Shown here: piece by piece, positions 28,410 through 41,202 of the stretch
How the letters are laid out: each line of letters opens with the position of its first letter
Numbering within the stretch: position 1 is the first letter of the stretch
Virus record (IMG/VR): IMGVR_UViG_3300048997_000495
Location: 1-41,202 of that record
Reading direction: 5' to 3' (one strand)
Length of the DNA stretch: 41,202 nt
Source of the DNA: a virus
The notes under the pieces: model-generated
Databases searched by the model: none
What the model was told of the DNA's origin: nothing
The model's input: the letters and a program-made list of their open reading frames with translations, nothing else
Translations under genes and position numbers: made by a program

Positions 28410-28516
28410 TCACATCCAGCACGGCGGGTCGAACTCCGCATCGCTATACCCGTGTAGTACGCCTGCCTGTTCACGGTTGCCTCGCAGCGCTGGTCGAACG
28501 GGATGAACTTAGCCAT
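28410..28516 (-). pseudogene. Frameshifted 35-residue phage protein remnant
   Basis: ATG 28516 overlaps the upstream stop and reads MAKFIPFDQRCEATVNRQAY, then in frame it drifts into IAMRSSTRRAG and on into the ASCH gene. If one G is added to the GGG run near 28460, it continues YTGYSDAEFDPPCWM and stops at 28410-28412. That ending looks like a genuine small phage protein. A one-base loss in a G run, or a sequencing error, is the simplest reading. Function unknown. Confidence 0.4.
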
Positions 28517-29714
28517 CTGTCTGCTTCCCGCCGTCTGCTCTATTGTTCACCGCCGCGATCAGTTCGTCGTAGCTCATGCCAATGCCTTCGGAGATGTAGC
28601 GAAGCTGCTGCTCATACGTCGGGCACTTCGCGAGGGCCGCATCGACCTGCGCGAGCCACGCGCGGTCCTTCTCGGCTATTTCCTGCCCGAGCTGCCCGGC
28701 CGCGTGTACGGACTGCATCCTGGTCCGAATCTCTCGAACTACCTGCGCGACCTCGTCTCGCTGCTCCCTGAGTCGCTTGAGTAACGGCATAGCGGTGATG
28801 CGCGGTGTTGCGGACGGCACGCAGGCGAGGAGCTTCGCCGGGAACCGCCACGCCTCGATGCCGCCGATCTCGTAGCTGATGCTCCAATGGCTCCGGTCAA
28901 TCGACCAGCGGTCCTCGTCCTCGAACCATTCCATGTGCGAGTCGAGCTCTTCCTTCGTTTCCTCGTCCTCGGGCTTCAGGCTGCCGCCGTAGATCACGTC
29001 GCACAGCGCCGCACGCACTTCGTCTTTGCTCCGGGCGATGGCGAATCCAGGCGTGTCCTCGTAGCCGACGATGAAATAGGCATCGCCGGTCTTCTGCGGT
29101 GTAGTGGATAGCGATGTTTGGAACTCGGCCAGGGCCTTCGCGCCGTGTTCGATGCGCGCCTTCTCCTGCTCCGGCGCGGTCTGATATTTGAACTCGCGTT
29201 GCGCGCGGTCGATCACCAAGCGCTCGCTGCACCCCACGCCGAAGCTTGTATTGCCTACCCATGCGGGCTCGGTCAGCTTTCCGTCGCCACTGCTCGCGAC
29301 GTGGGATGCGGCAGAAGAGGACAGCACGGCAGGTTCGCCATTTTGAGCCGGGCCAGCCGTTGAACCTGCACCCTCCTGCCGTGCCGTTTTCAATGCCTCG
29401 GCGCGTAACCCGGCGATTGCAAGGTCGCACAACGCGCCAAGCATTGGCTGGATGTCGTGCTCGCCAGGAGGGCTCAGCAAGTGAGCCTTGAAAGCGACGA
29501 GGATTTCTTCGTTCAAGTCTCCAGCGATGAGCCTGCGTTCAACCTCGGCCTGCGTCATGCCGCCGAGGACAAGTTCTTCGGCATCTTTCTGAGGCGGATG
29601 GTTCTTGCGGTATTCCGCAAGCTCTGCGTCGGTCAGGCGGTGGCGGTCCTTGGTGTCGTAGAATCCACCGCGCTTGGCGTCGTAGATGACAGGCGGGATG
29701 TGCGGCAAGCTCAC
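28509..29714 (-). CDS. Large early-operon protein of unknown function
   Basis: This 401-residue protein starts at GTG 29714, overlapping the upstream stop (GTGA). The longer frame upstream is a shadow of the HTH gene. N-terminal part: PHIPPVIYDAKRGGFYDTKD. The middle has acidic patches and an unusual stretch WFEDEDRWSIDRSHWSISYE near 310-330. The C-terminus is helical, Glu/Gln-rich (LREQRDEVAQVVREIRTRMQ). I do not recognise a family. It is in the early left operon between the second HTH protein and the ASCH remnant. Confidence 0.6.
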   Translation of the reverse strand: MSLPHIPPVIYDAKRGGFYDTKDRHRLTDAELAEYRKNHPPQKDAEELVLGGMTQAEVERRLIAGDLNEEILVAFKAHLLSPPGEHDIQPMLGALCDLAIAGLRAEALKTARQEGAGSTAGPAQNGEPAVLSSSAASHVASSGDGKLTEPAWVGNTSFGVGCSERLVIDRAQREFKYQTAPEQEKARIEHGAKALAEFQTSLSTTPQKTGDAYFIVGYEDTPGFAIARSKDEVRAALCDVIYGGSLKPEDEETKEELDSHMEWFEDEDRWSIDRSHWSISYEIGGIEAWRFPAKLLACVPSATPRITAMPLLKRLREQRDEVAQVVREIRTRMQSVHAAGQLGQEIAEKDRAWLAQVDAALAKCPTYEQQLRYISEGIGMSYDELIAAVNNRADGGKQTDG

Positions 29715-30049
29715 GCCGCCACCCCCACCATCGCCCGCGCGAGATCGAGCGCGCTCTCCTCCGCGCGCACCATGCGGAAGCGCTCGATCGTGAGCGACAC
29801 CGCGCGGTTGCCCATGTACCACTCATAGGCATTGATCTTGAACGGCGGCAGGTGCTTCTTGCCGTTCACGATGTTCGTGAAATGCGGCGCCTGGATGCCG
29901 CAGAGCTCGGCCGCGCGGCGCTTCGTCATCTCCTTCACGCGCCGGTTGTTCCAGGCCCACAGGATCGCGGCCTTGACCGCCTTCTGTTCATCGTCGCCGA
30001 ACGAGGCGAGCACGTCTGCCCGAACGAGGTCCGGGCGTCTTAGCAACAT
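29711..30049 (-). CDS. Second HTH regulator of the left operon (CII-like position)
   Basis: The likely product is 112 residues from ATG 30049, with GGTGAG upstream. A GTG start at 30073 (120 residues) is possible but has no ribosome site. A central HTH is visible: MTKRRAAELCGIQAPHFTNI with a following NGKKHLPPFKINAYEWYMGN. Its position just after the Cro-like gene in the leftward early operon is that of lambda CII, so it may set the lysis-lysogeny choice. Near its start lie palindromes at 30076-30121. Confidence 0.6.
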   Translation of the reverse strand: MLLRRPDLVRADVLASFGDDEQKAVKAAILWAWNNRRVKEMTKRRAAELCGIQAPHFTNIVNGKKHLPPFKINAYEWYMGNRAVSLTIERFRMVRAEESALDLARAMVGVAA

Positions 30050-30075
30050 GAGGAGGTTCAGCTCACCCTGCACGA

Positions 30076-30121
30076 TTACACGTCGACTTGTAAATTACAG
30101 GTCGCGTTACACGTCGACCTG
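30076..30121. promoter_or_regulatory. Cluster of palindromic sites upstream of the second HTH gene
   Basis: TTACACGTCGACTTGTAA (30076-30093) is a near-perfect palindrome. TTACACGTCGAC recurs at 30107-30118, with TTACAGGTCG between (30095-30104). CAGGTCG and CGACCTG (30098-30104 and 30115-30121) are a perfect inverted pair. This is a likely operator array for the neighbouring HTH protein or Cro. Different from the CI-type TTAC-N7-GTAA sites. Confidence 0.45.
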
Positions 30122-30161
30122 CCGGTAAAAAAGGGGGATGCGTTGTGAACCGACCGGGCCG

Positions 30162-30407
30162 TCATTGGGCGCGAAGCTCCTCTCCGTAGAAGAAGGCGAG
30201 CAGCTGCTCCTTGGAGAACGCCGCGCCGAACTTCACGCAGGCCTTGTAGAGCTGCTCCATATCGGCCCGGCTTTTGGGCACCCGGCGGGCGCTGACCCAG
30301 TGGGCGGCGATGTTCTTGACGGTACTGCCGGCCTCGGCCGCGAACGCCTCGCGGTCGGTGGCCGAGAGCGCCAGGTAAAAGGTTCGAAAGTCGGCTTGAC
30401 CAGACAT
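30162..30407 (-). CDS. Cro-like repressor
   Basis: This 81-residue protein is transcribed divergently from the CI-like gene. It has FRTFYLALSATDREAFAAEA then GSTVKNIAAHWVSARRVPKS, a small HTH typical of Cro-like proteins of betaproteobacterial phages (SPEERxxFAxRxGTS type). It should bind operators in the 30408-30514 gap and favour lytic growth. From the promoter predicted here the start codon is only a few bases after the transcription start. Confidence 0.7.
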   Translation of the reverse strand: MSGQADFRTFYLALSATDREAFAAEAGSTVKNIAAHWVSARRVPKSRADMEQLYKACVKFGAAFSKEQLLAFFYGEELRAQ

Positions 30408-30415
30408 GGGCGTCG

Positions 30416-30444
30416 ATTGTTTACCAAAACAGTAATTAACGCAA
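30416..30444 (-). promoter_or_regulatory. Leftward early promoter (PL) for the Cro-like gene
   Basis: On the minus strand TTGCGT (30439-30444), a 17-bp spacer and AACAAT (30416-30421) form a promoter. Operator TTACTGTTTTGGTAA fills the spacer. A start point near 30409 would give an almost leaderless message with ATG at 30407. Confidence 0.5.
30421..30435. promoter_or_regulatory. Immunity operator 1 (TTAC-N7-GTAA)
   Basis: TTACCAAAACAGTAA overlaps the leftward promoter. It differs by one base from the reverse complement of the operator at 31272-31286, so it is likely bound by the same repressor. Confidence 0.6.
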
Positions 30445-30478
30445 CACTTCCGGCCGGGGGATTTATCGTTTTATCCCA

Positions 30479-30495
30479 TTTACTATCACAGTAAA
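30479..30495. promoter_or_regulatory. Immunity operator 2 (TTAC-N7-GTAA)
   Basis: TTTACTATCACAGTAAA is a palindrome with a 7-base centre, 20 nt before the CI start. It probably tunes repressor expression. Confidence 0.6.
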
Positions 30496-30514
30496 GAATT
30501 GGTTTACTACTCCG

Positions 30515-31201
30515 ATGAAAGGTGTTTACGATGTCAGGCGAGAGAACCTGCGCGCGCTCATCGCGGAGAAGTTCAGCGCGCGGCAGGTCGAGTTTGCGGA
30601 GCACATGGAATATGAGCCGTCGTTCGTATCGCGACTGCTCAGTGAACGAAAGGGTTCCAAGCAGAACATCGGAAACAAACTCGCCCGGGACATCGAGACC
30701 CGCGTCGGCTTGGAGACGAACTGGCTCGACGTCCCCCATTCGGAACTGCGCCGGGTTGCCCAGGCGCGCGGCGAGTACAACGTTGAGGAAGGGCCGCCCA
30801 TGAGACAGCGTGTTCCGCTGCTGACCTGGGCTCAGGCCTGCAAATGGCGTGAGGTGATGGAGAAGTTGACGCCTGGTGCGCAGCGAGCGGTCGACACCAC
30901 CGCGGTGGTCAGCCGGCACGCATACGCCCTGAAGATCACCGGCGACTCGATGATGAATCCGAATGGCGCGCCGACGTTCCCGGAAGGCATGCTGATCATC
31001 GTCGATCCGGACAAGACCGCCGAGCCCGGCAGCTTCGTCGTCGTTCGCCAGGCTGGCCACGAGGAATGCACATTCAAGCAGCTCGTCCAGGACGGCGACC
31101 GGCGCTATTTGAAGCCCCTCAATCCGCGCTACCCGATCCTCGAGATGGGGCCCAACGACGAGATCTGCGGTGTCGCGGTGCAGGCCGTCGTGGATCTGTG
31201 A
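30515..31201 (+). CDS. CI-like repressor with S24 (LexA-type) peptidase domain
   Basis: This 228-residue protein has an N-terminal HTH (FSARQVEFAEHMEYEPSFVS at 20-39) and a C-terminal S24 domain: ITGDSMMNPNG with nucleophile Ser145, FPEGMLIIVDP and ECTFKQLVQDG with Lys188, then YLKPLNPRYP. It keeps the lysogen by blocking the early promoters, and RecA-stimulated self-cleavage should induce the phage. The usual Ala-Gly cleavage pair appears as Ala-Cys (TWAQACKW, about 104-111), which would be unusual. Confidence 0.85.
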   Translation: MKGVYDVRRENLRALIAEKFSARQVEFAEHMEYEPSFVSRLLSERKGSKQNIGNKLARDIETRVGLETNWLDVPHSELRRVAQARGEYNVEEGPPMRQRVPLLTWAQACKWREVMEKLTPGAQRAVDTTAVVSRHAYALKITGDSMMNPNGAPTFPEGMLIIVDPDKTAEPGSFVVVRQAGHEECTFKQLVQDGDRRYLKPLNPRYPILEMGPNDEICGVAVQAVVDL

Positions 31202-31259
31202 ATATTCCCGAAACAGCGACTTTTGCCGCGCCGATCGGATCATGGATTACTGAAATAGT

Positions 31260-31289
31260 TTGACAAGGACTTTACTGTTTCGGTAATCT
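31260..31289 (+). promoter_or_regulatory. Rightward early promoter with operator in the spacer
   Basis: TTGACA (31260-31265) and TAATCT (31284-31289) are 18 bp apart. TTACTGTTTCGGTAA (31272-31286), a TTAC-N7-GTAA operator, fills the spacer, and a partial site lies at 31247-31261. It should drive the right operon and be shut off by the CI-like protein. Confidence 0.6.
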
Positions 31290-31320
31290 AGCCTCCGCTT
31301 AATCAAAAAGCGGGGGCGAG

Positions 31321-31719
31321 ATGCAGCAACCAGCTGCACTGGAGCGGGGACAGGCGCAAGGCAAGCTCGGCTGCGCGTTCAAGGGCTGCATCGCAGACGC
31401 GCTCGAAGACAGCTTCTGGTGCGAAGCGCACCGGCCCGAGCTCCAGATCGATCAAACCCGCGGCCGGATGCCGCTGCGCTGGCAGATGGCCCTCGCCGGC
31501 GGCTGCACCGCGCTCTTCCTCTGGGTCCTGCCCTGGCTCGCGAGCGCGATCAAGGCCTCGCAAAGCGCGGCCGAGGTCGTGCAGACGTTTGGAATCCACA
31601 TTGCCTGCCGGCGTCCCGAGCTCGGCGAGCAGCTCGTCATCGTCGTTGGCCCCGGCGGCGTGGCGCCCCATGACTGCGTCTACGTCCGAACCCGCCCCAC
31701 CGATGGGGTGACGAAGTGA
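31321..31719 (+). CDS. First gene of the right operon: small membrane protein
   Basis: This 132-residue protein begins about 30 nt after the predicted promoter, with GGGGGCGAG before the ATG. N-terminal CAFKGCIAD and SFWCEAHRPEL could form a Cys3-His zinc site. One membrane segment lies at about 56-76 (MALAGGCTALFLWVLPWLAS). The C-terminal part has two more cysteines. No known family; a membrane zinc-ribbon-like protein expressed early. Confidence 0.6.
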   Translation: MQQPAALERGQAQGKLGCAFKGCIADALEDSFWCEAHRPELQIDQTRGRMPLRWQMALAGGCTALFLWVLPWLASAIKASQSAAEVVQTFGIHIACRRPELGEQLVIVVGPGGVAPHDCVYVRTRPTDGVTK

Positions 31720-31976
31720 GCTTCGATCTCGAGCGCAGCTTCCTGCTCGGGCGAACGATGGGCGATGCGGTATCCATTGAGCGCGAGGAGGTGATCTCCG
31801 GCCTGATCGTGCACGGCTTCAAATACGCGCCCCTGGCGGTGCGCAAGGACCGCAGCTTCGCCGCGTTCTACGCGCTGCGCAGCGACCTCCTCACCAAGAA
31901 CGCCGACGGCGTGCCCGTGAAGATCGCGCTGCGCGTCACCAACCGGATCATCGAGGACGAGAAGCGTGACCACTGA
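31716..31976 (+). CDS. Small phage protein of unknown function
   Basis: This 86-residue protein starts at GTG, overlapping the upstream stop (GTGA). It has the sequence LERSFLLGRTMGDAVSIERE and a later KIALRVTNRIIEDEKRDH. Nothing beyond operon position suggests a role. Confidence 0.55.
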   Translation: MSFDLERSFLLGRTMGDAVSIEREEVISGLIVHGFKYAPLAVRKDRSFAAFYALRSDLLTKNADGVPVKIALRVTNRIIEDEKRDH

Positions 31977-32262
31977 CCGGGTCGACGAGCTCGAGGAGGC
32001 CGTGCCCGAGCTCATCACGCCCGAGCAGTGGGCGCGGATCCTCGGCAACCACCGCAAGGTGCGCTGGCTCGTGACACCGGAGCAGATCGCCTGGGCGGGC
32101 AAGCGCGCGGTGAGCTGCGGCAACTGCGTCAACACGCGCATGTACGGCGACCCGCGCCGCGGCTGGTGCACCGTCCACCGCAAGATGGTCTCGCTCGCCT
32201 TCACCCTGCTGTGTCCCGAGCACAAAACCGAGCCGGCCACCGAGCCGGCCGCCGCGGGCTGA
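31966..32262 (+). CDS. Small cysteine-containing protein of unknown function
   Basis: This 98-residue protein starts at GTG inside the end of the previous gene. SCGNCVNTRMYGDPRRGWCT and LLCPEHK give four Cys and a His that could bind zinc. A helical N-terminal part includes LITPEQWARILGNHRKVRWL. Similar Cys-rich small proteins are frequent in betaproteobacterial phages. Confidence 0.55.
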   Translation: MTTDRVDELEEAVPELITPEQWARILGNHRKVRWLVTPEQIAWAGKRAVSCGNCVNTRMYGDPRRGWCTVHRKMVSLAFTLLCPEHKTEPATEPAAAG

Positions 32263-32588
32263 TGCGCCGAGCGCTCACAGCCGACCAGAAAGCCATCTTG
32301 GATTTCCTTTCCCGTACCACCGACCCAGACCAGGAAGCGCTCGAGCAGCTGATGTTCATGCTCGAGACGAGCCCGATCGCACGCAAGGCCTTCGGCGCCG
32401 AGATGGTCCGCAACCGCCAGTTCGCCGCGCTTTGCAGAAGCCGAAAGCGCGACCTGCCGAACAAGGTCGCCGAGGCCCTCGAGGACCTCGCGCCGCGCTC
32501 GCCCAGCTTCGAGATCCTCGTCGCGCGCGCCGAACGGCTCGGCGAGGCGCCACCGCAGCTCGAGCTCACACCCGAACCGTTCGAATAA
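32262..32588 (+). CDS. Small helical protein of unknown function
   Basis: This 108-residue protein starts at ATG overlapping the upstream stop (TGATG). It is mostly helical and charged (DQKAILDFLSRTTDPDQEAL, RKRDLPNKVAEALEDLAPRS). No family recognised. Confidence 0.55.
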   Translation: MRRALTADQKAILDFLSRTTDPDQEALEQLMFMLETSPIARKAFGAEMVRNRQFAALCRSRKRDLPNKVAEALEDLAPRSPSFEILVARAERLGEAPPQLELTPEPFE

Positions 32589-32599
32589 AGGGAGGAACC

Positions 32600-32770
32600 A
32601 TGGGGCGTCTGCTCAAAGCCATCGCCATCTACCTCGACACGCAGTACAGCTGGCCGACCGCCTGGCGCCTCGCCGGCGACCAGCCCGCGCGCATCGACGC
32701 GCCGGTGCGCACCGTGAAGGGCGAGGACGGACTCGACTACGTCGAGATCCCGGTGCGGTTCGTTCCGTGA
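32600..32770 (+). CDS. Short protein of unknown function
   Basis: This 56-residue protein has a strong Shine-Dalgarno (GGGAGGAA) and ends in a 4-nt overlap with the next gene. It reads MGRLLKAIAIYLDTQYSWPT and ends in DYVEIPVRFVP. Too short for classification, but the ribosome site and coupling make it convincing as a gene. Confidence 0.6.
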   Translation: MGRLLKAIAIYLDTQYSWPTAWRLAGDQPARIDAPVRTVKGEDGLDYVEIPVRFVP

Positions 32771-33054
32771 GCGCCGTCAAGCACCAGCCCGCGACGCCGC
32801 TGCCGTGGATCGTCGTGAAGGATGGCATCTACACGGTGATCGATTCCAAGCCGCCAAATGCGAAGCGAGTCGGCGTAATGAAGTACATCGATGCGCCGGC
32901 AGATCAGAACGCCGCCTATGTCGCCCATTCCGCGAACGCCTACCCGAAGCTGATCGAGGCGCTACAGCGCATGGCGCGCACCCCGGCGGCGTATCCGGCT
33001 GCCGACCGCGCTGCAGCGTTTCAGCTCCTTGGCGAACTCGGGGAAGCAGCATGA
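32767..33054 (+). CDS. Small conserved phage protein
   Basis: This 95-residue protein starts at GTG (GTGA overlap). TPLPWIVVKDGIYTVID and NAAYVAHSANAYPKLIEALQ have the look of the common phage protein family in which a PWxVxxD strand and a NAxxI/VxxxNxxPxLIEAL helix are conserved. The function is not known. Confidence 0.65.
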   Translation: MSAVKHQPATPLPWIVVKDGIYTVIDSKPPNAKRVGVMKYIDAPADQNAAYVAHSANAYPKLIEALQRMARTPAAYPAADRAAAFQLLGELGEAA

Positions 33055-33458
33055 GCAGCGCCGCCATATGTTTTGTCTCGACGTTCATCGCCGTCTTCGC
33101 ACTCGGCCTGCAGAGCCTGAACGTGAACCAGGGGCACTACCTCGCCGCCGCCGTCACGAGCTTGATGATCGGCTCGAGCACCATCGCGCTCTACAAGTTC
33201 ATGCCGGGCGCAAACGCGGCCGACGTCGCCGGCTATCTCGCCGGCGGCGTCACCGGCATCACCTCGAGCATGTGGTTCCACCAGCGCTTCAAGGCGTGGT
33301 GGACCGAGGCGCTCGCGCGCCGGCGCGAGGCACGGCGTCTGCGCGAAGCCATCCAGCGCTGCCGCAGCGGGCAGGTGCCTCCCAAAATCCCTACCCCGAG
33401 CCCATTCTGGCCCCCGACACCTACTAACCAAAACAAACAAAGGGAGAAGACCCCATGA
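33051..33458 (+). CDS. Phage membrane protein
   Basis: This 135-residue protein starts with ATG overlapping the upstream stop. It has three hydrophobic segments (about 5-20, 30-47, 54-73) including FALGLQSLNVNQGHYLAAAV, a pattern known from small membrane proteins of Burkholderiales-type phages. The C-terminal half is basic, Arg-rich, then Pro-rich. Role unknown; superinfection exclusion would be one possibility. Confidence 0.65.
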   Translation: MSSAAICFVSTFIAVFALGLQSLNVNQGHYLAAAVTSLMIGSSTIALYKFMPGANAADVAGYLAGGVTGITSSMWFHQRFKAWWTEALARRREARRLREAIQRCRSGQVPPKIPTPSPFWPPTPTNQNKQREKTP

Positions 33459-33886
33459 CCATCACCGCCGACGCAATCACGTCCGCACTCAAGAAGATCG
33501 GGCCCTGCTCACCGGGCAAGCTTGCCGAGGAGCTCGGCGTCGAGCAGCTGCCCGGCCTCCTGCTAAAGCAGCTGATCGAGGACGAGACCATCAAGGCCGC
33601 CGGCGCCGCGCGCGGCCGCCGCCTGGCGCTGCCCGACCAGAAGATCGAGGACGCCAAGGGCGCCCCCCCCCAGCCGAAAAAACAGCGCAAGGCCAAGAAG
33701 GCTCGCAAAGCGAAGAAGGCGCGCGCGCCACAGACCTCGAGGCCCGCCACACCCGACGAGCGCTTCGTCCCCACGGTCGACGCAGCGAAGCGTCTGCACA
33801 TCATCAACGGCGGCCTGCCCCTGAGTTTCAACGACGAGCAGACCGAGGCGATCGCCACGCTCCTGCTTCAACACTACGGAGCCTGA
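33455..33886 (+). CDS. Winged-helix-like protein with basic linker
   Basis: This 143-residue protein has a predicted small winged helix at 1-50 (ITADAITSALKKIGPCSPGK then LLKQLIEDETIKAAG) and a Lys/Arg/Ala-rich linker at about 70-90 (KKQRKAKKARKAKKARAP) that would bind nucleic acid. The C-terminal part is short. It lies 1 nt upstream of the ParB-like gene and may act with it. Confidence 0.55.
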   Translation: MTITADAITSALKKIGPCSPGKLAEELGVEQLPGLLLKQLIEDETIKAAGAARGRRLALPDQKIEDAKGAPPQPKKQRKAKKARKAKKARAPQTSRPATPDERFVPTVDAAKRLHIINGGLPLSFNDEQTEAIATLLLQHYGA

Positions 33887-33887
33887 C

Positions 33888-35780
33888 ATGAACGCACCCA
33901 CCACCGCGGCCGCGCTGTCGAAGCCCTCCCTGCAGCTGCTCGCGATCGCGAGCATCGTACCGAGCAAGTCTCACGTCCAGGGGCTCCGGCGTGCCCGCTT
34001 CAACCCGGCCTCGCTGCAGAAGCTGGCTGACGACATCAAGCGCAACGGACTGCTGCAGCACCCGCTCGCACGGCCGCTCGACGGCAAGCACGAGCTCGTC
34101 GCCGGCGAACGTCGCTGGCTCGCCGCCAAGCTCGCCGGCCTGAAGGAGATCTTCGTCAACGTCCGCGAGCTCACCGACGACCAGGCCCTCGAGGCGCAGC
34201 TGTCGGAGAACCTGCAACGCGAGGATCTGCACCCCCTCGAGGAAGCCGAGGGCTACGAAGAGCTGATGAAGCTGAAGAAGATCACCGCCGACCAGGTCGC
34301 CGAAATGATCGGCCAGAGCCGGAGCTATGTATACGGCCGCCTCAAGCTCATCGCCCTGTGTCCCGAAGCACGCAAGGCCTTCTACGCCGGCGACTTAGAC
34401 GCTTCGAAGGCGCTGCTCATCGCGCGCATTGGTCATCACGATACGCAACGCCAGGCGCTGAAGGATCTCGTCCAGGGAACTGAGCACGAAGGCCCGCCGG
34501 CGAACTACCGCGACGCGCACAAGCACATCCTCGAGAACTACATGCTCAAGCTCTCGACGGCGCCGTTCGATATCAAGGACGCCACGCTGCTGCCGAAGGC
34601 AGGCGCCTGCGGCCCCTGCCCGAAGCGCACCGGCAACCAGGTCGATCTCTTCGGCGACGTCAAGAATGCAGACATCTGCACGGACCCGAAATGCTTCGAC
34701 GACAAGCGCCAGGCGCACCACGCCGTCGCACGCAAAGCGCTCGAGGCAAAGGGTCGCAACGTGATCTATGGCGCCGACGCGAAGAAACTGATGCCGCACT
34801 GGGAGAACAACGACAACGGCTACATCGCCGGCAACGCCTACGTCAAGCTCGATCAGAATGAATACTTCGGCGGCCGCTACCAGCCGGTTGCCGAGATCCT
34901 GGGCAAGGACTACGTTCCGACGCTCATCCAGCACCCGCTCAGCGGCAAATTCATTGAAGTCGCGCCGCGGTCGACCGTGGCATCGAAGGCCTCCGCCAAG
35001 GCCAAAGAACGCACCAGCCGCTCACGTAGCAGCTCGAGCCAGCGGCCCACGAGCCCCGCGGCGAAGAAAGCCGACATCGAAAAACAGATCGAGCGGCAGA
35101 CCATTGGGCGAATTCTCAAGGCGCTGCACGACAAGATCAACACGCTGGGGAAGGAAGATCTGATCCAGCTGGCCATTCGACCCTATGGCTGGGACACGGA
35201 TTCAGGTCACATGGGCGAGATCTTCGGTTGGAAGAAGAACGTGCACTCGAAGGCGATCGAGGCAAAAGCTCGAGGTATGAAACCCGAGCAGCTGCTGAAG
35301 ATGGGCTTCCTCCTCCATCTCTCGTACGAAGAGAACTCCAACTACGACGATGAACCGCTCCTCGCGGCCGCCAAGCGGTACAAGATCGACCCCAACGCGC
35401 TGAGGAAAGAGGTCGAGGCCGCGCTAAGGAAACCGAAGCTACCGACCTCGAGCAAACCCACCTGGTCGACGCCGGCGCCGTCTGCACCCGCCACGAAGTC
35501 GGATTTCCTCAGGCCGATGCAGCCCTCCGACCAGCTCGCGCAGATCTGCGGCGCCGCGCCCATCACCCGAGTCGACATCACGAAGAAGATCTGGGGCTAC
35601 ATAAAGCGCAACGGCCTTCAGGACAAGAAGAACCGGCGAATGATCAACGCCGACGACAAGCTCGCCATGGTCTTCGCCGGCAAGAAGCAGCTGTCGATGT
35701 TCGAGATGACGAAACACTGCACCGCGCACACCAGGCGGTGCACGTCGACGACGTCGAAGGGCAAGGGGAAAAAGAAATGA
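33888..35780 (+). CDS. ParB/Spo0J-like protein
   Basis: This 630-residue protein carries the ParB signature: VAGERRWLAAKLAGL at about 71-85 (the CTP-binding box region) and LSENLQREDLHPLEEAEGYE at about 104-123. An HTH follows (KITADQVAEMIGQSRSYVYG). ParB proteins are usually about 300 residues. The second half is extra and includes a Cys motif (GACGPCPKRT ... DICTDPKCFDDK, about 236-268) that could bind a metal. In the phage it may regulate replication or recombination rather than partition, as no ParA is present. Confidence 0.8.
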   Translation: MNAPTTAAALSKPSLQLLAIASIVPSKSHVQGLRRARFNPASLQKLADDIKRNGLLQHPLARPLDGKHELVAGERRWLAAKLAGLKEIFVNVRELTDDQALEAQLSENLQREDLHPLEEAEGYEELMKLKKITADQVAEMIGQSRSYVYGRLKLIALCPEARKAFYAGDLDASKALLIARIGHHDTQRQALKDLVQGTEHEGPPANYRDAHKHILENYMLKLSTAPFDIKDATLLPKAGACGPCPKRTGNQVDLFGDVKNADICTDPKCFDDKRQAHHAVARKALEAKGRNVIYGADAKKLMPHWENNDNGYIAGNAYVKLDQNEYFGGRYQPVAEILGKDYVPTLIQHPLSGKFIEVAPRSTVASKASAKAKERTSRSRSSSSQRPTSPAAKKADIEKQIERQTIGRILKALHDKINTLGKEDLIQLAIRPYGWDTDSGHMGEIFGWKKNVHSKAIEAKARGMKPEQLLKMGFLLHLSYEENSNYDDEPLLAAAKRYKIDPNALRKEVEAALRKPKLPTSSKPTWSTPAPSAPATKSDFLRPMQPSDQLAQICGAAPITRVDITKKIWGYIKRNGLQDKKNRRMINADDKLAMVFAGKKQLSMFEMTKHCTAHTRRCTSTTSKGKGKKK

Positions 35781-36204
35781 AGCTCGAGCTCCGCCCCCGC
35801 CTGCAGGCGGACCACGTCACCCGCGTGATGTGCGCGGTCCTGATCTGCGAGTCGGAAGCAGAATCGAAAATCATCGACAAGGTCTTCGGCAACAAGGTCC
35901 TCGACGCCGACGGCCTGATCGCGCGGCGCACCGTCGAGGTCCGGCTCGCCGATGGCTTCCGCGAGCACTACCTGCACATCGCGCCGGAGGCGCCGTGGAT
36001 CCCGGTCGGCGAGCGGCTGCCGACGCACGTGCACAGCGTGCTGATGCTCGTGACGAACGACGGCCTGGCCTCCTTCGACGGGCATCCCTACGTCGAGATC
36101 GGCATCTACAACGCGAAGCGCGGCCGCTGGCAGATGAACTTCGGCGACGACGATGTCGACGTCGAAGTCTCCACTGGATGCCAGAGCCGAGCGTGCGGGT
36201 ATGA
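35777..36204 (+). CDS. DUF551-like protein, frameshifted near its C-terminus
   Basis: The ATG overlaps the ParB stop. The conserved DUF551 stretch is APWIPVGERLPTHVHSVLML and later SFDGHPYVEIGIYNAKRGRW. These proteins end in a conserved HWMPLP-like motif. As read, the frame after VEVS gives TGCQSRACG and runs on to 36583 through the next gene. Adding one C at 36170-36172 restores SHWMPEPSVRV and a stop at 36202-36204 that overlaps the next ATG. A one-base loss in a C run is strongly suggested. Function unknown. Confidence 0.6.
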
Positions 36205-36656
36205 GGCGCGCCATCTGCATCGGCTGCGGCTGCGACGAGGAGCACTGCTGTCCGGCGAAGTACTTCAACGGCCTGGTCGAGCGCGAAATCGGGTGCTGGT
36301 GGCTGCGCTTCGATGCGGGAAGCGTCAGCGGCGTCTGCAGTTCCTGCGAGGACCTCGTCAAAGGCTGGGACAACGGCCCGCACAAGCCGATCCTGCCGTT
36401 GATCGCCGAGCGCTACTACCGCCAGGTCCTCTTCCTGTACGAGGACAAGGCCTCGGCGCTCGCCTGGATGGTGGGGCCTCAGTACCTCCTGCGCCACCGA
36501 TCGCCGCGCGAGCTCATCCTCGCCGGCGAGCTCGAGCAGCTGAGACGTTTGTCGAACAGCTGCAGACCGGAGCGCTCGCCTGATGGCCGCGACCTGGAGA
36601 CAGGCCCACGAGCGCCTCCTGCAGATCCTGCCAGTGCGCGAGCACCGGCGGGTTGA
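36201..36656 (+). CDS. Cys-rich phage protein, probably frameshifted at the 3' end
   Basis: The ATG at 36201 overlaps the restored stop of the previous gene. It opens with AICIGCGCDEEHCCPAKYF and later CSSCEDLVKGW, a likely zinc ribbon. As read it goes to 36656, overlapping the next gene by 74 bp. With one extra G near 36539-36541 (CAG-GCT instead of CAGCT) it continues AETFVEQLQTGALA and stops at 36581-36583, exactly overlapping the next ATG. The family is common in betaproteobacterial phages; the role is unknown. Confidence 0.55.
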   Translation: MRRAICIGCGCDEEHCCPAKYFNGLVEREIGCWWLRFDAGSVSGVCSSCEDLVKGWDNGPHKPILPLIAERYYRQVLFLYEDKASALAWMVGPQYLLRHRSPRELILAGELEQLRRLSNSCRPERSPDGRDLETGPRAPPADPASARAPAG

Positions 36657-36846
36657 AGAGGCAGAGCCGCGCACAGACTTCAACGGCCACCGGACCAAGG
36701 TCGCGCGCGATCACCGCCGGCGGGTAATCCGCCAGTGGCTCTCCGAAGGCGCGACGAAAGAGGCGATGGCCGCCCGCCTGCAGGTCACGGTGCGAGCGGT
36801 GGAGTACCACCTGGCGGCGATCGCTGAGGAGAGCAGCGATGGGTGA
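36583..36846 (+). CDS. Small HTH protein
   Basis: This 87-residue protein has a C-terminal HTH (VIRQWLSEGATKEAMAARLQ then VTVRAVEYHLAAIAEE). It resembles the HTH of LuxR/sigma-like proteins that read DNA. The N-terminal half is charged. A regulatory role in the right operon is likely, target unknown. Confidence 0.6.
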   Translation: MAATWRQAHERLLQILPVREHRRVEEAEPRTDFNGHRTKVARDHRRRVIRQWLSEGATKEAMAARLQVTVRAVEYHLAAIAEESSDG

Positions 36847-37738
36847 CAAGACCACCATCGAGTGGACCGACGCCACCTGGAACCCGGTGCGCGGCTGCTC
36901 GATCGTCTCGAAGGGCTGCACCAACTGCTACGCGATGAAGCAAGCCCACCGCTCGAGCGGCGCCGGCGGCGCGTATGAAGGGCTGACGAAGCTCACTAAG
37001 GGCGGTCCGGTGTGGACCGGCGCGATACGCGAGCTCCCCGAACTGCTCGACCAGCCGCTCAGATGGCAGCGGCCGCGGCGGATCTTCGTCAACAGCATGA
37101 GCGACCTCTTCCACGAGGACGTGCACGGCGACTTCATCGACGAGGTCCTCGACGTCATCAGGCGATGCAACTACGGCGGCGTCGGCCACACCTTCCAGAT
37201 CCTCACCAAGCGCGCGGCGCGGATGCACGACTTCATGAAGTACTACCAGCCGCTGCCGAACCTCTGGCTCGGCGTGAGCGTCGAGGACCAGGCCGCGGCC
37301 GAGGAGCGGATCCCGCTCCTCCTGCAGACGCCGGCGGCCGTGCGCTGGATCTCGGCCGAGCCGCTGCTCGGTCCGATCGATCTTCTGCAGATTACGCACC
37401 ACTTCACCGCGCTCAGCCACGAGGTTTTCAATTCACTCTACAAGAAAGAACCGCTGAATCGCGGCCAGCCTCGTCCGCGCCTGGACTGGGTCGTCGCCGG
37501 CGGCGAGAGCGGACCTGGCGCCCGGCCGATGCACCCCGACTGGGCGCGATCGCTGCGCGACCAATGCGCGGCGGCCGGCGTGGCGTTCTTCTTCAAGCAG
37601 TGGGGCAGCTGGACACCGTACTGCGCACCGCTTGAGGCCGAGCAGGTCCAGCTGGAGGGCTGCAATATGCGCCGCGTCGCTAAGAAGGCCGCTGGCCGCC
37701 AGCTCGACGGCCGCACGCACGACGAGTACCCGGCATGA
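36839..37738 (+). CDS. Phage Gp37/Gp68 family protein (DUF5131)
   Basis: This 299-residue protein has the family start TTIEWTDATWNPVRGC, with cysteines spaced C-x6-C-x2-C (RGCSIVSKGCTNCYA, about 18-33), like a radical-SAM iron-sulfur loop. Later IFVNSMSDLFHEDV, TFQILTKRA, NLWLGVSVEDQ and VVAGGESGPGARPMHPDWAR are conserved marks. Members are widespread in phages, with activity not established. It is well placed in the right operon and full length. Confidence 0.85.
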   Translation: MGDKTTIEWTDATWNPVRGCSIVSKGCTNCYAMKQAHRSSGAGGAYEGLTKLTKGGPVWTGAIRELPELLDQPLRWQRPRRIFVNSMSDLFHEDVHGDFIDEVLDVIRRCNYGGVGHTFQILTKRAARMHDFMKYYQPLPNLWLGVSVEDQAAAEERIPLLLQTPAAVRWISAEPLLGPIDLLQITHHFTALSHEVFNSLYKKEPLNRGQPRPRLDWVVAGGESGPGARPMHPDWARSLRDQCAAAGVAFFFKQWGSWTPYCAPLEAEQVQLEGCNMRRVAKKAAGRQLDGRTHDEYPA

Positions 37739-38313
37739 ACAAGGCCGAGCTTGTCCAGCGCGGCGCGCAGCTCATGGTCTCGTTCTGCGCGACGAACAGT
37801 CTGCCGGCGCCCACCATCCGCGAGGCGGCGCCGGCGGCCTGGGGGCACGGCGTGTGCGCGTTCTACCGCCCCTCGTACGTCGCCATCTGCGTGCCGAGGT
37901 GCGCGGCGATCGGCACGGCCGGCCGCCAGTGGTCCTACCCCGGCTACACGGTCGACCGCACGCCCTACGGCGTCCTGCAGCACGAGCTCGGCCACCACGT
38001 CGACGTGCTGAGAAGCACGCGACGCGGCAACTACTACGGCGATTTCGGTTTGCGCCTGCGGCAAGTCAGCGGCGAGAGGCAGATCACGTCCTACTGTCCG
38101 GATGATGCCGAGTGGTTCGCCGAGATGTTCCGGGTTTTCGTCACCAACCCGGACCTGTTGCGCATCGTTCGCCCGCGCACCTACCGCGAGATCCGCTCAT
38201 GCTTCACGCCGGTCTTCGAGGACACCTGGCGCGATCGCCTCCGTGACGCGCCGGCGCGCACGATCGCCGCGGCCGCGCGGCACGTGGAAGCGGCGGCGGG
38301 CAGCTTGCTTTGA
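37735..38313 (+). CDS. Putative zinc metallopeptidase (HExxH)
   Basis: This 192-residue protein has QHELGHHVDV at about 82-91, an HExxH zinc motif, and DAEWFAEMFRVFVTNPDLL at about 123-141, whose Glu may be the third ligand. The start overlaps the upstream gene by 4 nt. Many small HExxH proteins on mobile elements are involved in antirestriction or protein cleavage. The target is unknown. The catalytic residues look intact. Confidence 0.65.
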   Translation: MNKAELVQRGAQLMVSFCATNSLPAPTIREAAPAAWGHGVCAFYRPSYVAICVPRCAAIGTAGRQWSYPGYTVDRTPYGVLQHELGHHVDVLRSTRRGNYYGDFGLRLRQVSGERQITSYCPDDAEWFAEMFRVFVTNPDLLRIVRPRTYREIRSCFTPVFEDTWRDRLRDAPARTIAAAARHVEAAAGSLL

Positions 38314-38576
38314 TGCCCGGCCCGATCGAGCCGATCAACCTCACCGAGGACGAGCTCGTGCAGGCGTCCGGCGGCCACACACAGCCGCGCCGGCAGCTCG
38401 GCGAGCTGCAGCGTCGCGGCTTCTGGCGGGCGAAGCTGAACATGCACGCGCGGGTCGACCTCGAGCGCGCGCACTACCTGGCGGTGTGCGCCGGCGCCTT
38501 GCCCTTGCCGACGACGGGCGAGGCGCGCGATACTGCGCGCCCGTCGGTGCAGCCGCTCAGGAGGAAAGCCGGATGA
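38313..38576 (+). CDS. DUF4224 family protein, excisionase-like position
   Basis: This 87-residue protein begins LTEDELVQASGGHTQPRRQL, the DUF4224 pattern (LTxxELxxLTGxxxxxxQxxxL), followed by RRGFWRAKLNMHARVDL. It precedes the integrase by a 4-nt overlap. DUF4224 proteins are often next to phage integrases and may act as excisionases (Xis). That role is inferred from location. Confidence 0.75.
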   Translation: MPGPIEPINLTEDELVQASGGHTQPRRQLGELQRRGFWRAKLNMHARVDLERAHYLAVCAGALPLPTTGEARDTARPSVQPLRRKAG

Positions 38577-39649
38577 AGCTGAAAAGGGTGTTCCCGCAGG
38601 ACGGGCGCTACTACTACATCATGGACCTCGACGAGCGCAACCCGAACACCGGGCGCTTCAAGCAGCGCTGGATCCCGCTCACGCGCATCGACCAGGGCGA
38701 CGCCGCGCTCCTCGAGGCGCTGCGCGAGCTGCTCGGGGAGACGCCCGTGCGCCAGGGCAACATGAAAGCCCACATCGAGGACTTCAAGAAAATCCTCTAC
38801 CCGGGCGTCACCGTGTCGGTGCGCGGCGAGTACACCCGGATGTTCAAGGAGATCAACGACGGCTTCAAGCCGTTCGACAGCGCAGGCGTCGAGCCGGGCG
38901 ATGTCATCAAGTTCCTGCAGGACAATTTCGCGACGAAGCTGAACGCGCGCTCGAAGTACAAGGGCCTGCTCTCGCAGTTCTTCTCCTGGTGCGTGGTGAA
39001 TTCGTACACCGGGGTGAAGGTGAACCCCTGCCGCGAGATCAAGATGTCGCGCCCGCCCAAGCGCAAGGGGAAGATGAACGCCGAGCGCTTCTGGAAGATC
39101 TGGGACGCGCTCACACCGATGGGCCGCTGCTTCCTCGAGCTGATGTACTTCAGCCTGCAGCGGCCGACCGAGATCCGGCTGCTGCGCGACTCGCACATCG
39201 GGCCCGAACGCATTCTCTTCGTGCCCACCAAGACCGAGGATGAGACCGCGCTCGACGTCGACATCGTCATCACTCCGGAGATCCGGAAGGTGATCGCGCG
39301 CGCTCGAGCGCTGCGGCCGAAGAAGAAGGTGCAGGGGAAGGTGGTGGAGCTGCCCCGGCGCGAGGATAAATTCATCATCCAGACGCGCACCGGCGACGGC
39401 TACACCAAGAACGGGATCTACGAGGTCTGGCGCGCCGCCGTCGACGCGGCCGGCTACGAGGGCATGAACGTCACCACGCGCGACGTGCGACCCTACGCGC
39501 TGAAGGAGATGGAGAAAGCCGGGCACTCTCTGCGCGACATTCAGACACGCGCCGTACACGCCTCGGTGACCACGACCGAGGGCTACCTCGATCAGCACCG
39601 CGACAGCGTGAGCGACGTGCGGCTGCCGCTGCCGGCGAGGCCGAAATGA
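38573..39649 (+). CDS. Tyrosine recombinase/integrase
   Basis: The 358-residue protein starts at ATG 38573, with GGAGGAA upstream. Catalytic positions are recognisable: Arg197 in QRPTEIRLL, Lys220 in FVPTKTEDE, Arg306 in TTRDVRPYALKEME, His329 in AVHASVTTTEGYL and the nucleophile Tyr338. The usual His of the HxxR box is Arg303 here. It should insert the phage at tRNA-Pro, 1.1 kb downstream. The core-binding helical domain spans about 60-160. Confidence 0.9.
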   Translation: MKLKRVFPQDGRYYYIMDLDERNPNTGRFKQRWIPLTRIDQGDAALLEALRELLGETPVRQGNMKAHIEDFKKILYPGVTVSVRGEYTRMFKEINDGFKPFDSAGVEPGDVIKFLQDNFATKLNARSKYKGLLSQFFSWCVVNSYTGVKVNPCREIKMSRPPKRKGKMNAERFWKIWDALTPMGRCFLELMYFSLQRPTEIRLLRDSHIGPERILFVPTKTEDETALDVDIVITPEIRKVIARARALRPKKKVQGKVVELPRREDKFIIQTRTGDGYTKNGIYEVWRAAVDAAGYEGMNVTTRDVRPYALKEMEKAGHSLRDIQTRAVHASVTTTEGYLDQHRDSVSDVRLPLPARPK

Positions 39650-40035
39650 AGCTCTTCAAGTTCGAGATCGAGCGCGGCCGCAAGGGCAAGGACGTTGTGG
39701 TCCACGCCGAGGATGAGGACGCGGCGCGCGCGCGCGTGGCGAAGAAGTACACGGGCTGGACGGTCCGCGGCGAGATCCACGAGGTAGCCGGCGAGGCGCA
39801 CTTCGTGCTCGCCGACCTCGAGGACGAGGACCCTAGCCCCACTCCAGCCCCGGCGTTAGATAGGGCGATTGAAATGTTGCGCCGCGTCGAATTCAGCGTA
39901 GATACGCACGAGCGCACCGGCAAGGACACGCTTGGCTGTCCGATGTGCAACGGCGGGACCATCGTCGGGCTGCATGGCGAACACGACGCGGACTGCGAGC
40001 TTGCTGCCCTTCTGCGCGATTTGGACGCGCTCTAG
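39646..40035 (+). CDS. Small protein after the integrase with a Cys motif
   Basis: This 129-residue protein starts at the ATG that overlaps the integrase stop. N-terminal half: FKFEIERGRKGKDVVVHAED, which has a beta-rich look. C-terminal half: helix AIEMLRRVEFSVDTHERT, then CPMCNGGTIVGLHGEHDADC with Cys/His spacing fitting a small zinc site. No family named. Confidence 0.55.
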   Translation: MKLFKFEIERGRKGKDVVVHAEDEDAARARVAKKYTGWTVRGEIHEVAGEAHFVLADLEDEDPSPTPAPALDRAIEMLRRVEFSVDTHERTGKDTLGCPMCNGGTIVGLHGEHDADCELAALLRDLDAL

Positions 40036-40052
40036 GCGTTTCGCTATGCGAT

Positions 40053-40067
40053 CCACCCATCGGGTGG
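40053..40067. promoter_or_regulatory. Upstream operator CCACCC-N3-GGGTGG
   Basis: Palindrome CCACCCATCGGGTGG, centre 36 bp upstream of the second copy. It lies about 20 bp upstream of the -35 box. A likely site for the HTH protein encoded at 40219-40416. Confidence 0.55.
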
Positions 40068-40080
40068 GTTCATTCCATCA

Positions 40081-40109
40081 TTGACATTCCACCCATTGGG
40101 TGGATAATG
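40081..40109 (+). promoter_or_regulatory. Promoter with operator in its spacer, driving the tRNA-like/HTH unit
   Basis: TTGACA (40081-40086) is followed 16-17 bp later by GATAAT/ATAATG (40103-40109). The perfect palindrome TCCACCC-ATT-GGGTGGA (40088-40104) fills the spacer, so binding there would block polymerase. Start point would be near 40115. Confidence 0.65.
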
Positions 40110-40133
40110 TGAACCATGCAAACGAACAACAAC

Positions 40134-40202
40134 GGGGCCGGTTCAGGTGAGCAGCGCGGGAGTTTAGACCCTGCGCTGAGGGTTCGAGTCCCTCCGGCTC
40201 CA
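40134..40202 (+). tRNA. Atypical tRNA or tRNA-like element in an operon leader, anticodon uncertain (UUA by symmetric reading)
   Basis: A full cloverleaf can be drawn. The acceptor stem GGGGCCG (40134-40140) pairs with CGGCTCC (40195-40201) with one G-U. The D arm GTTC-AGGT-GAGC is at 40141-40152. A T arm with canonical TTCGAGT loop and GAGGG/CCCTC stem is at 40178-40194. Discriminator is A; CCA is not encoded (TCC follows). It differs from normal tRNAs: no positions 8-9, a 4-nt D loop, an 8-bp anticodon-type stem (40153-40160 with 40170-40177) closing a 9-nt loop AGTTTAGAC, and no variable loop. The symmetric 7-nt register gives anticodon TTA, which would read UAA. It may be functional, a mimic or a decayed tRNA. 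Confidence 0.5.
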
Positions 40203-40218
40203 TCCCTTAGGAGCAGCC

Positions 40219-40416
40219 ATGACGACGCGGAAGGCGCCGGCGCCCGCGGAGATCCGCAAAGCGCGCGAGGCGGCGAGCCTCACGCAGGAGGCCGCGGCCG
40301 AGAAGATTTACAAGAGCCGGCGCGCCTGGGAGAACTGGGAAGGCGGCGTGCGACCGCTCGATCCGGCGCTCTTCGAGCTCTTCCTGATCAAGACCGGGCA
40401 ACTGGAGAAACTGTGA
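40219..40416 (+). CDS. Small XRE-type HTH regulator
   Basis: This 65-residue protein has TTAGGAG 7 nt upstream of the ATG, directly after the tRNA-like element. EIRKAREAASLTQEAAAEKI and SRRAWENWEGGVRPLDPALF form a Cro/CI-type HTH like the short phage proteins of the LRxxLGLTQxxxAxxxGxSxRTWxRWExG family. It probably binds the CCACCC-N3-GGGTGG palindromes and represses its own promoter; that is inferred from context. Confidence 0.65.
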   Translation: MTTRKAPAPAEIRKAREAASLTQEAAAEKIYKSRRAWENWEGGVRPLDPALFELFLIKTGQLEKL

Positions 40417-40727
40417 TGGCTGAAAGCCAGTGCGTGAAAATCGGGTTCGCGGACGCAGTGCGCGAACACGGCGACGGTTGGACCTACGCGGAACAATTCG
40501 GGCAGATCAGTGCTTCAACTTTGAACGCAATGAGAGAGCGTGGTCACTGGCAGGACGCGCTGAGGATGAGTCTCTGCGAGACCAGCGAGAACCGGCTTTT
40601 CCAAGTCGAGCGTCCGCTATATCGTTGTGGCTGCGACGGCCTGTGCGCGAAGCATCCTGATTGCCCAGGTGACGTCTACCAGCAGGGCTATCCGTACAAA
40701 AACTTTGAGACTCCTCAAAGCGGTTAG
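40416..40727 (+). CDS. Unknown cysteine-rich protein of the tRNA-like/HTH unit
   Basis: This 103-residue protein starts at ATG overlapping the HTH stop (TGATG). N-terminal half: VKIGFADAVREHGDGWTYAE and ASTLNAMRERGHWQDALRMS, helical. C-terminal half: YRCGCDGLCAKHPDCPGDVY, four Cys and a His in 15 residues, a likely zinc knuckle. It is the last gene before the attachment tRNA, a common cargo position. No family recognised. Its regulation by a dedicated promoter suggests expression in the lysogen or in a specific condition. Confidence 0.55.
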   Translation: MAESQCVKIGFADAVREHGDGWTYAEQFGQISASTLNAMRERGHWQDALRMSLCETSENRLFQVERPLYRCGCDGLCAKHPDCPGDVYQQGYPYKNFETPQSG

Positions 40728-40755
40728 CGCATGCTCTCTTTAAAAACATCGGAAT

Positions 40756-40790
40756 TGGTCGGGGCGGCGAGATTTGAACTCGCGACCACC
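40756..40790. other. Likely attachment site (attR) in the 3' end of tRNA-Pro
   Basis: The 3' half of tRNA-Pro faces the integrase-proximal end of the prophage, the usual crossover region for tyrosine integrases. I saw no copy of this 3' sequence near the left edge of the window, so the exact core cannot be defined here. Confidence 0.5.
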
Positions 40791-40832
40791 TGCACCCCAT
40801 GCAGGTACGCTACCAGGCTGCGCTACGCCCCG
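40756..40832 (-). tRNA. tRNA-Pro(GGG)
   Basis: The reverse complement folds as a 77-nt tRNA including CCA: acceptor CGGGGCG with CGCCCCG, anticodon stem CCTGC/GCAGG around the loop ATGGGGT with anticodon GGG, and a normal T arm GAGTTCAAATCTC region. CCA is encoded. It lies 25 nt from the MerR stop, as in many Betaproteobacteria. It is intact after phage insertion. Confidence 0.95.
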
Positions 40833-40857
40833 ATTTTGCGGCTGTGAAGCGTGGATT

Positions 40858-41202
40858 CTACCCCTGCAACTGGTCCAGAACGGCGCGCAGCTCGCGCTTG
40901 ATGGCCGCGATATCGACGCCGGCAGTGCCGTTGGCGCTTGCGACGCGGCCGTTGCGCGCCGGCGACTCGGGCTTCTCGTCCTGCGCGAGCGAATTGTCGA
41001 GCCGGTTGCGCGCGCCGCTGATGGTGAAACCCTCCTCGTACAGCAGCTCGCGGATGCGGCGGATGAGCAGCACTTCGTGGTGCTGGTAGTAGCGGCGGTT
41101 GCCGCGCCGCTTCACCGGCTTGAGCTGGGTGAACTCCTGCTCCCAGTAACGCAGGACGTGCGGCTTCACCCCGCAAAGATCGCTTACTTCACCGATCGTG
41201 AA
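40858..41202 (-). CDS. MerR-family transcription regulator, 5' end outside the window
   Basis: The frame is open through the window edge; 114 residues are visible. It starts within FTIGEVSDLCGVKPHVLRYW, the MerR HTH with the typical RYWE motif, followed by LKPVKRRGNRRYYQHHEVLL and IRRIRELLYEEGFTISGARN. The short C-terminus suits the MerR members next to ihfA and tRNA-Pro in Betaproteobacteria. It is host DNA. Confidence 0.9.
   Translation of the reverse strand, partial: FTIGEVSDLCGVKPHVLRYWEQEFTQLKPVKRRGNRRYYQHHEVLLIRRIRELLYEEGFTISGARNRLDNSLAQDEKPESPARNGRVASANGTAGVDIAAIKRELRAVLDQLQG

Follow-up and report, generated by a model that had tools for sequence, protein, structure and literature searches.

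A reduced-core, alanine-type tRNA-like gene near the end of a prophage and its relatives in viruses, transposons and bacteria

The stretch of DNA that we analysed (the window) comprises the 41202 bases of a virus record. At its right end an integrase gene, a promoter with a palindromic operator, a small cloverleaf-forming element (the window element), a helix-turn-helix (HTH) gene and a further open reading frame follow one another ahead of a host tRNA-Pro gene (Table 1). The sigma-70-type promoter is the sole promoter-like site within 39900-40860, and a score of at least 11 is reached by 0.15% of 70-nt segments. The window element starts 18 nt after this 11/12 promoter, and the HTH gene starts 16 nt 3' of the element. 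The window RNA and the HTH mRNA probably lie on one transcript, and the 65-aa HTH protein is likely the regulator of the operon. Similarity to Gammaproteobacteria begins at 40753, at the 3' end of tRNA-Pro(GGG), and is followed by a MerR gene as in three host relatives, which places the prophage end (attR) at tRNA-Pro and not at the tRNA-like element. The window element, 550 nt inside the prophage, and the HTH gene are therefore phage genes. No clear direct repeat was found between the right end and the remainder of the window, and a search for relatives of the integrase and of a 129-aa ORF returned none. Elsewhere in the window, positions 33888-35780 encode a 630-aa protein in which a ParB-type domain is fused to a SWIB domain, an unusual combination in phage.

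Table 1. Features at the right end of the window, in window coordinates.
Feature	Position	Strand	Remarks
Tyrosine integrase	38102..39649	+	Pfam PF00589 3.5e-9; PHROG 1 9.9e-27
Upstream operator-like palindrome copy TCCACCCATCGGGTGG	40052..40067	.	Direct repeat D14, inverted repeat I7
Sigma-70-type promoter TTGACA-16-GATAAT	40081..40108	+	11/12; predicted start ~40115
Palindromic operator TCCACCCATTGGGTGGA	40088..40104	.	Between -35 and -10
Reduced-core alanine-type tRNA-like gene	40134..40202	+	69 nt to discriminator base; fold, covariance model
Acceptor GGGGCCG / CGGCTCC	40134..40140 / 40195-40201	+	7 bp
G3:U70 wobble pair within acceptor	40136 : 40199	+	
D arm GTTC-AGGT-GAGC	40141..40152	+	Joins acceptor directly, bases 8-9 absent
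Long anticodon-type arm AGCGCGGG-A-GTTTAGA-CCC-T-GCGCT	40153..40177	+	
7-nt loop	40162-40168	+	U33 = 40163; triplet UUA = 40164-40166
T arm GAGGG-TTCGAGT-CCCTC	40178..40194	+	
Shine-Dalgarno AGGAG of HTH gene	40209..40213	+	7 nt past discriminator base
65-aa helix-turn-helix protein	40219..40416	+	HTH_31/HTH_19/HTH_3 type, weak Pfam matches
103-aa ORF, function not assigned	40416..40727	+	Overlaps HTH stop (TGATG); reading frame
Host tRNA-Pro(GGG)	40756..40832	-	attR here

The window element runs from the 5' acceptor strand through the 4-bp D stem (GTTC/GAGC) with its GG-containing loop AGGT, the long arm (AGCGCGGG..CCTGCGCT) and the T arm to the 3' acceptor strand and a discriminator A (A73), with no variable loop and no CCA on its 3' side. 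It folds to a four-arm cloverleaf of -38.5 kcal/mol (z = -3.1 against dinucleotide shuffles), and it reaches 76 bits (E 3.6e-18) with a family covariance model whose training set contained neither it nor its relatives L280 and L209-1; the second-best site of the window reaches 12 bits. The cloverleaf at 40134-40202 is real, far beyond chance. Sequence, fold and covariance model thus bear out the sequence-only reading of this DNA, which had placed a cloverleaf between the promoter and the Shine-Dalgarno of the HTH gene, and the anatomy given there (7-bp acceptor, 4-bp D stem with GG, 5-bp T stem with TTCGAGT, no bases 8-9, variable loop or CCA) is correct throughout. The 8-bp stem with a 9-nt loop that it described is one valid pairing of the long arm; the arm can also pair as 5+3 bp, with a bulged A, a 3' bulged T and the 7-nt loop GTTTAGA. 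The G3:U70 wobble and A73 go beyond that reading.

The standard scans that had been suggested as a check passed the element over: ARAGORN called only the host tRNA-Pro in the window, and Rfam at gathering thresholds returned only this tRNA as well, the element lying above none of them. With relaxed Rfam thresholds, its best match was the mascRNA model at 27 bits (cut-off 42.5), and the tmRNA model (RF00023) aligned end to end, with the body deleted, at 21.3 bits (cut-off 47). With bacterial tRNAs the element shares the four-arm cloverleaf, the 7-bp acceptor, the 5-bp T stem and a TTCRANY loop, and it lacks bases 8-9, a D loop of at least 7 nt, a variable region of at least 4 nt, and an ARAGORN call or RF00005 match above the gathering score. 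Its sequence carries the alanine identity set G3:U70 plus A73, and in the bulged pairing it presents UUA in a 7-nt loop with U33 and a purine at position 37, as in an ochre suppressor. The element is a real RNA gene, of a non-canonical tRNA kind.

A first phage pattern, which combined a GGGG..CTCCA acceptor with a T arm and with GG in the D region, matched at least 120 phage contigs. The matches were of two kinds, TLD-only tmRNAs of 75-81 nt with tmRNA motifs and Rfam scores of up to 72.9 bits, and RNAs of ~68-72 nt with the anatomy of the window element. A narrower pattern for the second kind was found in 77 phage contigs and in 109 stretches in bacterial genomes, and the same pattern with G3:C70 instead of G3:U70 in 8 phage contigs as against 77, implying that the alanine pair is under selection. 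The RNAs of the family are small, lack bases 8-9 and have a 4-bp D stem with a GG loop of 4 nt, an anticodon-type stem that is long and bulged, and an alanine charging signal (the pair G3:U70 plus A73), and the covariance model places the window element within it. Among 141 non-redundant hits, taken without a structural filter and with pairing counted at positions that the pattern left free, the acceptor was paired in 84 (12.7 in shuffles), the T stem in 112 (18.9) and the D stem in 69 (11.6). In a 46-member alignment, for which the acceptor and D stems were selection criteria and the anticodon stem was lightly filtered by fold energy, 85% of cells pair, covariation is 0.587 (0.168 when shuffled, 0.11-0.18 when slid), two-sided cells number 292 (107 when shuffled), and two-sided changes occur at all eight pairs of the anticodon stem. 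Covariation is strong in the acceptor, D, anticodon and T stems of the family, which is a widespread and uncatalogued group of miniature alanine tRNAs in viruses, transposons and some bacteria.

Near the window element itself, an exact 19-mer search of viral contigs found no copy, and comparison with INPHARED phages gave unrelated short matches only for its region and zero matches for that of L088. The named phage ctDrO704, which has radC and sprT-like genes, lacks the element in the 5.5 kb around those genes. The covariance model found 0 members in 301 genomes of the host family (best 40.6 bits, a score that ordinary tRNAs reach too; by score and length, matches of up to 41 bits look like such tRNAs), and a pattern search found 0 in 369 genomes of the host class, where family and class are those of G117, the genome whose MerR is nearest to that of the window (82% identity, 185 genomes sampled), and the host genus may differ. 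In the class of G007 (Candidatus Peribacteria), a family member is present in 19 of 288 genomes. The sparse distribution fits a sporadic, mobile gene.

The surroundings of the relatives bear on whether the RNA is a gene or a leader. An intrinsic terminator lies at most 75 nt downstream in 17 of 85 non-redundant members, compared with 3.2% of random positions, and CCA is encoded in 27 of 63 bacterial members and 0 of 21 phage members; together, these terminators and CCA ends are what is expected of a free, charged RNA and point to an RNA gene rather than a leader mimic. For phage members in the integrase region, a 10-11/12 promoter stands just upstream in five of seven (background at most 0.5%), and a perfect palindrome with 6-8 bp arms lies in the promoter of four; that of L186 is imperfect. 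The promoter-operator layout recurs with different palindromes in L209, L088 and L039, and in L209 a single promoter is followed by a tandem pair of members, which face the integrase. The next gene is the HTH gene in the window, a sprT-like gene in L088, L186 and L280, and radC in L039; the operon of L088 has an HTH gene further downstream (this gene and radC were identified by eye from their translations). A same-strand gene follows at 11-250 nt in several relatives, L104 has none right after its element, and the cloverleaf is absent from all 23 loci with relatives of the HTH gene. No conserved partner protein was found among the neighbours, where transposases, HTH, LexA, sprT-like and radC genes recur. 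These features fit a free RNA gene that heads a regulated accessory operon.

The anticodon loop is conserved around the window element. TTTAGA (U33, UUA, G37, A38) is invariant in it and in L280, L209-1, L104, L301, L384, L395 and L316-2, and occurs in L303 too, where the register is ambiguous; one search asked for TTTAGACC, with TTTAGA as input, and the copies from the 77-contig phage pattern and the bacterial-genome pattern are independent of TTTAGA. At least seven further elements thus have the UUA loop on stems that are not alike. In the closest relative, L280, whose last 25 nt are identical to those of the window element, the flanks of the loop, CAGG/CCTG, are unambiguous; they fix the register and support a UUA reading with U33. 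In the window's group (A4), U33, U35, G37, A38 and the C after the loop are all invariant. The loop is CTCTAGA (CUA, amber) in L088 and L186 and CTCTGGA in L039, and ARAGORN calls the relatives L104 and L312 'tRNA-Stop (tta)'. The triplet varies by clade, being UGA in Acidimicrobiia, UGA, UGU, CGA or CGU in Peregrinibacteria-type genomes and variable in Melainabacteria. Other branches have UGA, UGU, CGU, UAC or other triplets, often a C at position 37 and sometimes no U33, which is odd for a decoding tRNA.

Four homologous elements from Melainabacteria and related genomes (L294, L302, L326, L357) have near-identical acceptor, D and T arms and the triplets GAG, GCG, GUC and GAA in a CTNNNAA loop, and two paralogs in G509 share the acceptor, D arm, T arm and UGA triplet with entirely different anticodon stems. 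The anticodon arm is also found repeated: L280 has an exact 20-bp direct repeat of it 98 bp away (3591-3610 and 3689-3708), and L039 has a direct repeat ~70 bp upstream of the element. In Acidimicrobiia (L307, L310, L311, L341, L362), members with an invariant UGA triplet and encoded CCA stand beside selenocysteine genes, with selA ~129 nt upstream in five of five and selB ~105 nt downstream in four of five.

We compared the element with known systems. Canonical bacterial tRNA-Ala has a like acceptor (GGGGCCG/CGGCTCC-A with G3:U70) and T arm, but the window element is without bases 8-9 and the variable loop, its D loop has 4 nt rather than at least 8, its anticodon stem is longer, and UUA is not an alanine anticodon. 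The tRNA-Pyl of Methanomethylophilus alvus and its relatives also lacks the connector between acceptor and D stem and has a 4-nt D loop, an interrupted anticodon stem and a stop-codon anticodon; the window element differs in the alanine identity of its acceptor (G3:U70, and A73 in place of G73), in reading UUA and not CUA, and in its canonical GG and TTC loops, and a scan of the right-end genes showed none that could be recognised as PylRS-like. Allo-tRNAs and natural nonsense or missense suppressor tRNAs likewise combine non-canonical bodies with stop or sense anticodons and occur in metagenomes. In allo-tRNAs the acceptor branch is of the 8/4 or 9/3 type and the variable arm is long, whereas the window element, set against this description, has a 7/5 branch and no variable loop. 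In the E. coli thrS leader, a tRNA-like fold precedes and controls a synthetase gene, that of the enzyme whose substrate recognition it exploits by mimicry; the gene downstream of the window element encodes an HTH protein and no synthetase, and family members are separate genes with terminators and encoded CCA of their own.

The TLD-only tmRNA of Mycobacterium phage DS6A is like the window element in being phage-borne, ~70 nt long and devoid of an mRNA body, with a G3:U70 acceptor, a GG D loop and a canonical T arm. In TLD-only tmRNAs the D region, which contains GG-UUCGAC, is unpaired, GGAC precedes the T stem and there is no anticodon arm, whereas the window element has neither motif, its D stem is paired, an anticodon arm with the UUA loop replaces the SmpB-binding region, and its tmRNA score stays below the cut-off. 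The TLD-type RNAs of phage contigs L086, L060, L042 and L132 reach 51.8-72.9 bits with the same Rfam model. Reports on TLD-only tmRNA list DS6A as the sole phage example (PMC4131195, PMC11915505). Among the distinct hits of the first phage pattern, ~49 of 104 are genes of this type, in these four and ~45 other contigs; they are common in phage contigs, are 59-81 nt long, carry tmRNA motifs and have no room for a tag.

Our favoured reading, with a probability of roughly 0.45, is that the window element is a reduced-core tRNA-Ala that would be alanylated by the host AlaRS and act as an ochre-suppressor-like reader of UAA. The operator-controlled promoter, whose layout is seen, would give one transcript with the tRNA-like RNA first and the HTH gene after it. 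Host tRNA-processing enzymes would excise the cloverleaf, and CCA would be added. The RNA would be charged with alanine via the conserved G3:U70 and A73, which are the major identity elements of AlaRS (PMC7590224). The UUA anticodon would then allow entry into the ribosome at UAA, and some ochre stops would be read as alanine, which is the least certain step; a similar core, in which the connector is missing, the D loop has 4 nt and the anticodon stem is interrupted, is found in the tRNA-Pyl of M. alvus, which is translationally active (PMC7609411). Repression of the shared promoter by the HTH protein is probable and would render the RNA dose self-limiting. Decoding accounts for the conservation of both the acceptor identity and the triplet, and neither a tmRNA decoy nor a nuclease decoy does. 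Against this reading, we found no gene in the window with an in-frame UAA needing suppression, and the phage copies lack an encoded CCA. UAA stops end ~7 of 25 leftward late-side genes (1-28500) and 0 of 13 rightward early-side genes (28500-40727); since late genes use UAA, efficient suppression during lysis would be costly. A recoding of the phage's stop codons was considered and rejected, as no interrupted genes were seen and the terminase and the primase each match their family within a single frame. A broader reading, which we hold only tentatively, is that the family consists of mobile miniature alanine tRNAs whose anticodons match, depending on the clade, stop codons (UAA/UAG), serine codons (UCR) or threonine codons (ACR); carried by phages, by transposons and on some chromosomes, they might make ribosomes insert alanine at these codons and so act as self-regulated modifiers of the genetic code.

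Other explanations were weighed against ochre decoding. We consider it unlikely that the element is a decoy, either an alanylated mimic that titrates SmpB, EF-Tu or AlaRS, and hence trans-translation, or one that absorbs a tRNA-targeting defence nuclease. The end-to-end, sub-threshold alignment to the tmRNA model and the abundance of TLD-type RNAs in the first-pattern hits would suit it, as would the radC and sprT-like neighbours, which occur in accessory operons. In E. coli, tmRNA is inhibited by a molecule similar to the TLD-only tmRNA that DS6A carries (PMC4131195, PMC11915505), and phage tRNAs are known to evade tRNA-targeting defences (PMC10264068, PMC11555353). A tmRNA decoy, however, is hard to reconcile with the paired D stem, the full anticodon arm at the SmpB site and the missing UUCGAC and GGAC motifs, and would have no need of the conserved UUA loop. 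Likewise, a decoy for an anticodon nuclease would not need the conserved G3:U70 and would have no tRNA to mimic, for to our knowledge no standard tRNA carries a UUA anticodon. It appears improbable that the element donates alanine to a reaction outside the ribosome, such as the tailing of a peptide, lipid or protein, with an anticodon that is free to drift. It would explain why the alanine identity is fixed while the triplet varies by branch, as in the four Melainabacteria-type elements, and AlaRS does not read the anticodon. Against it, the neighbours include no recurrent aminoacyl-transferase gene, and the triplet is kept within branches despite changes of the stem (UUA in the branch of the window element; UGA in Acidimicrobiia and also in the paralogs of a single Patescibacteria genome).

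It is also quite unlikely that the cloverleaf is a cis-acting leader, in which it would signal processing or regulation and its cleavage would free the HTH mRNA or control it. The closeness of the HTH start codon and Shine-Dalgarno to the discriminator base, and of same-strand genes in several relatives, speaks for a leader; the relatives' own terminators, the lack of such a gene after L104, the tandem pair of L209 facing the integrase, the varying downstream genes, the HTH-relative loci without the element, and the G3:U70 and encoded CCA, which a leader does not need, speak against it. A relic, that is an attachment-site copy or decayed tRNA-Ala acquired by the phage and now functionless, is very improbable and largely refuted. 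The integrase is near, phages acquire tRNA pieces at attachment sites, and L280 repeats its anticodon arm nearby; but attR lies at tRNA-Pro, 550 bp distant, where the host similarity begins, so that an attachment-site origin was rejected, all four stems are intact and covarying, and unrelated phages share the promoter-operator layout. Of the four readings that the sequence-only account had offered, the ochre-suppressor-like tRNA gains most, from the preference for G3:U70 and the UUA loop of independent relatives; its UUA triplet is backed by the register in L280 and by recurrence, and covariation of the acceptor and long stem, to which it had pointed, was found in the relatives. The control element after the thrS model loses ground through the terminators, the differing next genes, L104 and the HTH loci without the element. 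A processing signal that frees the HTH mRNA is possible at the window locus because the HTH start is so close, and a decoy for an anticodon nuclease is a lesser possibility. That no such unit had been described holds for the exact unit, while the TLD-only tmRNA of DS6A and the reduced-core tRNA-Pyl come close.

The family was missed by Rfam models and mostly by ARAGORN, yet it has kept strong covariation and an alanine charging signal. If the decoding reading is true, phages and transposons hold compact tools for rewriting stop or sense codons as alanine, and the family shows how little of a tRNA body suffices; if a decoy is true, phages would have, beside TLD-only tmRNA, a second RNA means of disturbing translation quality control. 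The window element, L280, L209, L088, L186 and L039 form a defined set amenable to bench work.

Further members stand next to mobile or regulatory genes. Six (L312, L316, L348, L392, L396, L388) precede IS1-like or IS1595-like transposase genes by 35-250 nt, and some of the six have a conserved small gene on their opposite flank; this RNA seems to travel with transposons. In L301 and L390, members lie 180-225 nt upstream of lexA-type genes. Phages with tRNA arrays (L035, L045, L073, L093 and others) carry other reduced-core tRNAs, including a tRNA-Ala (UGC) without bases 8-9.
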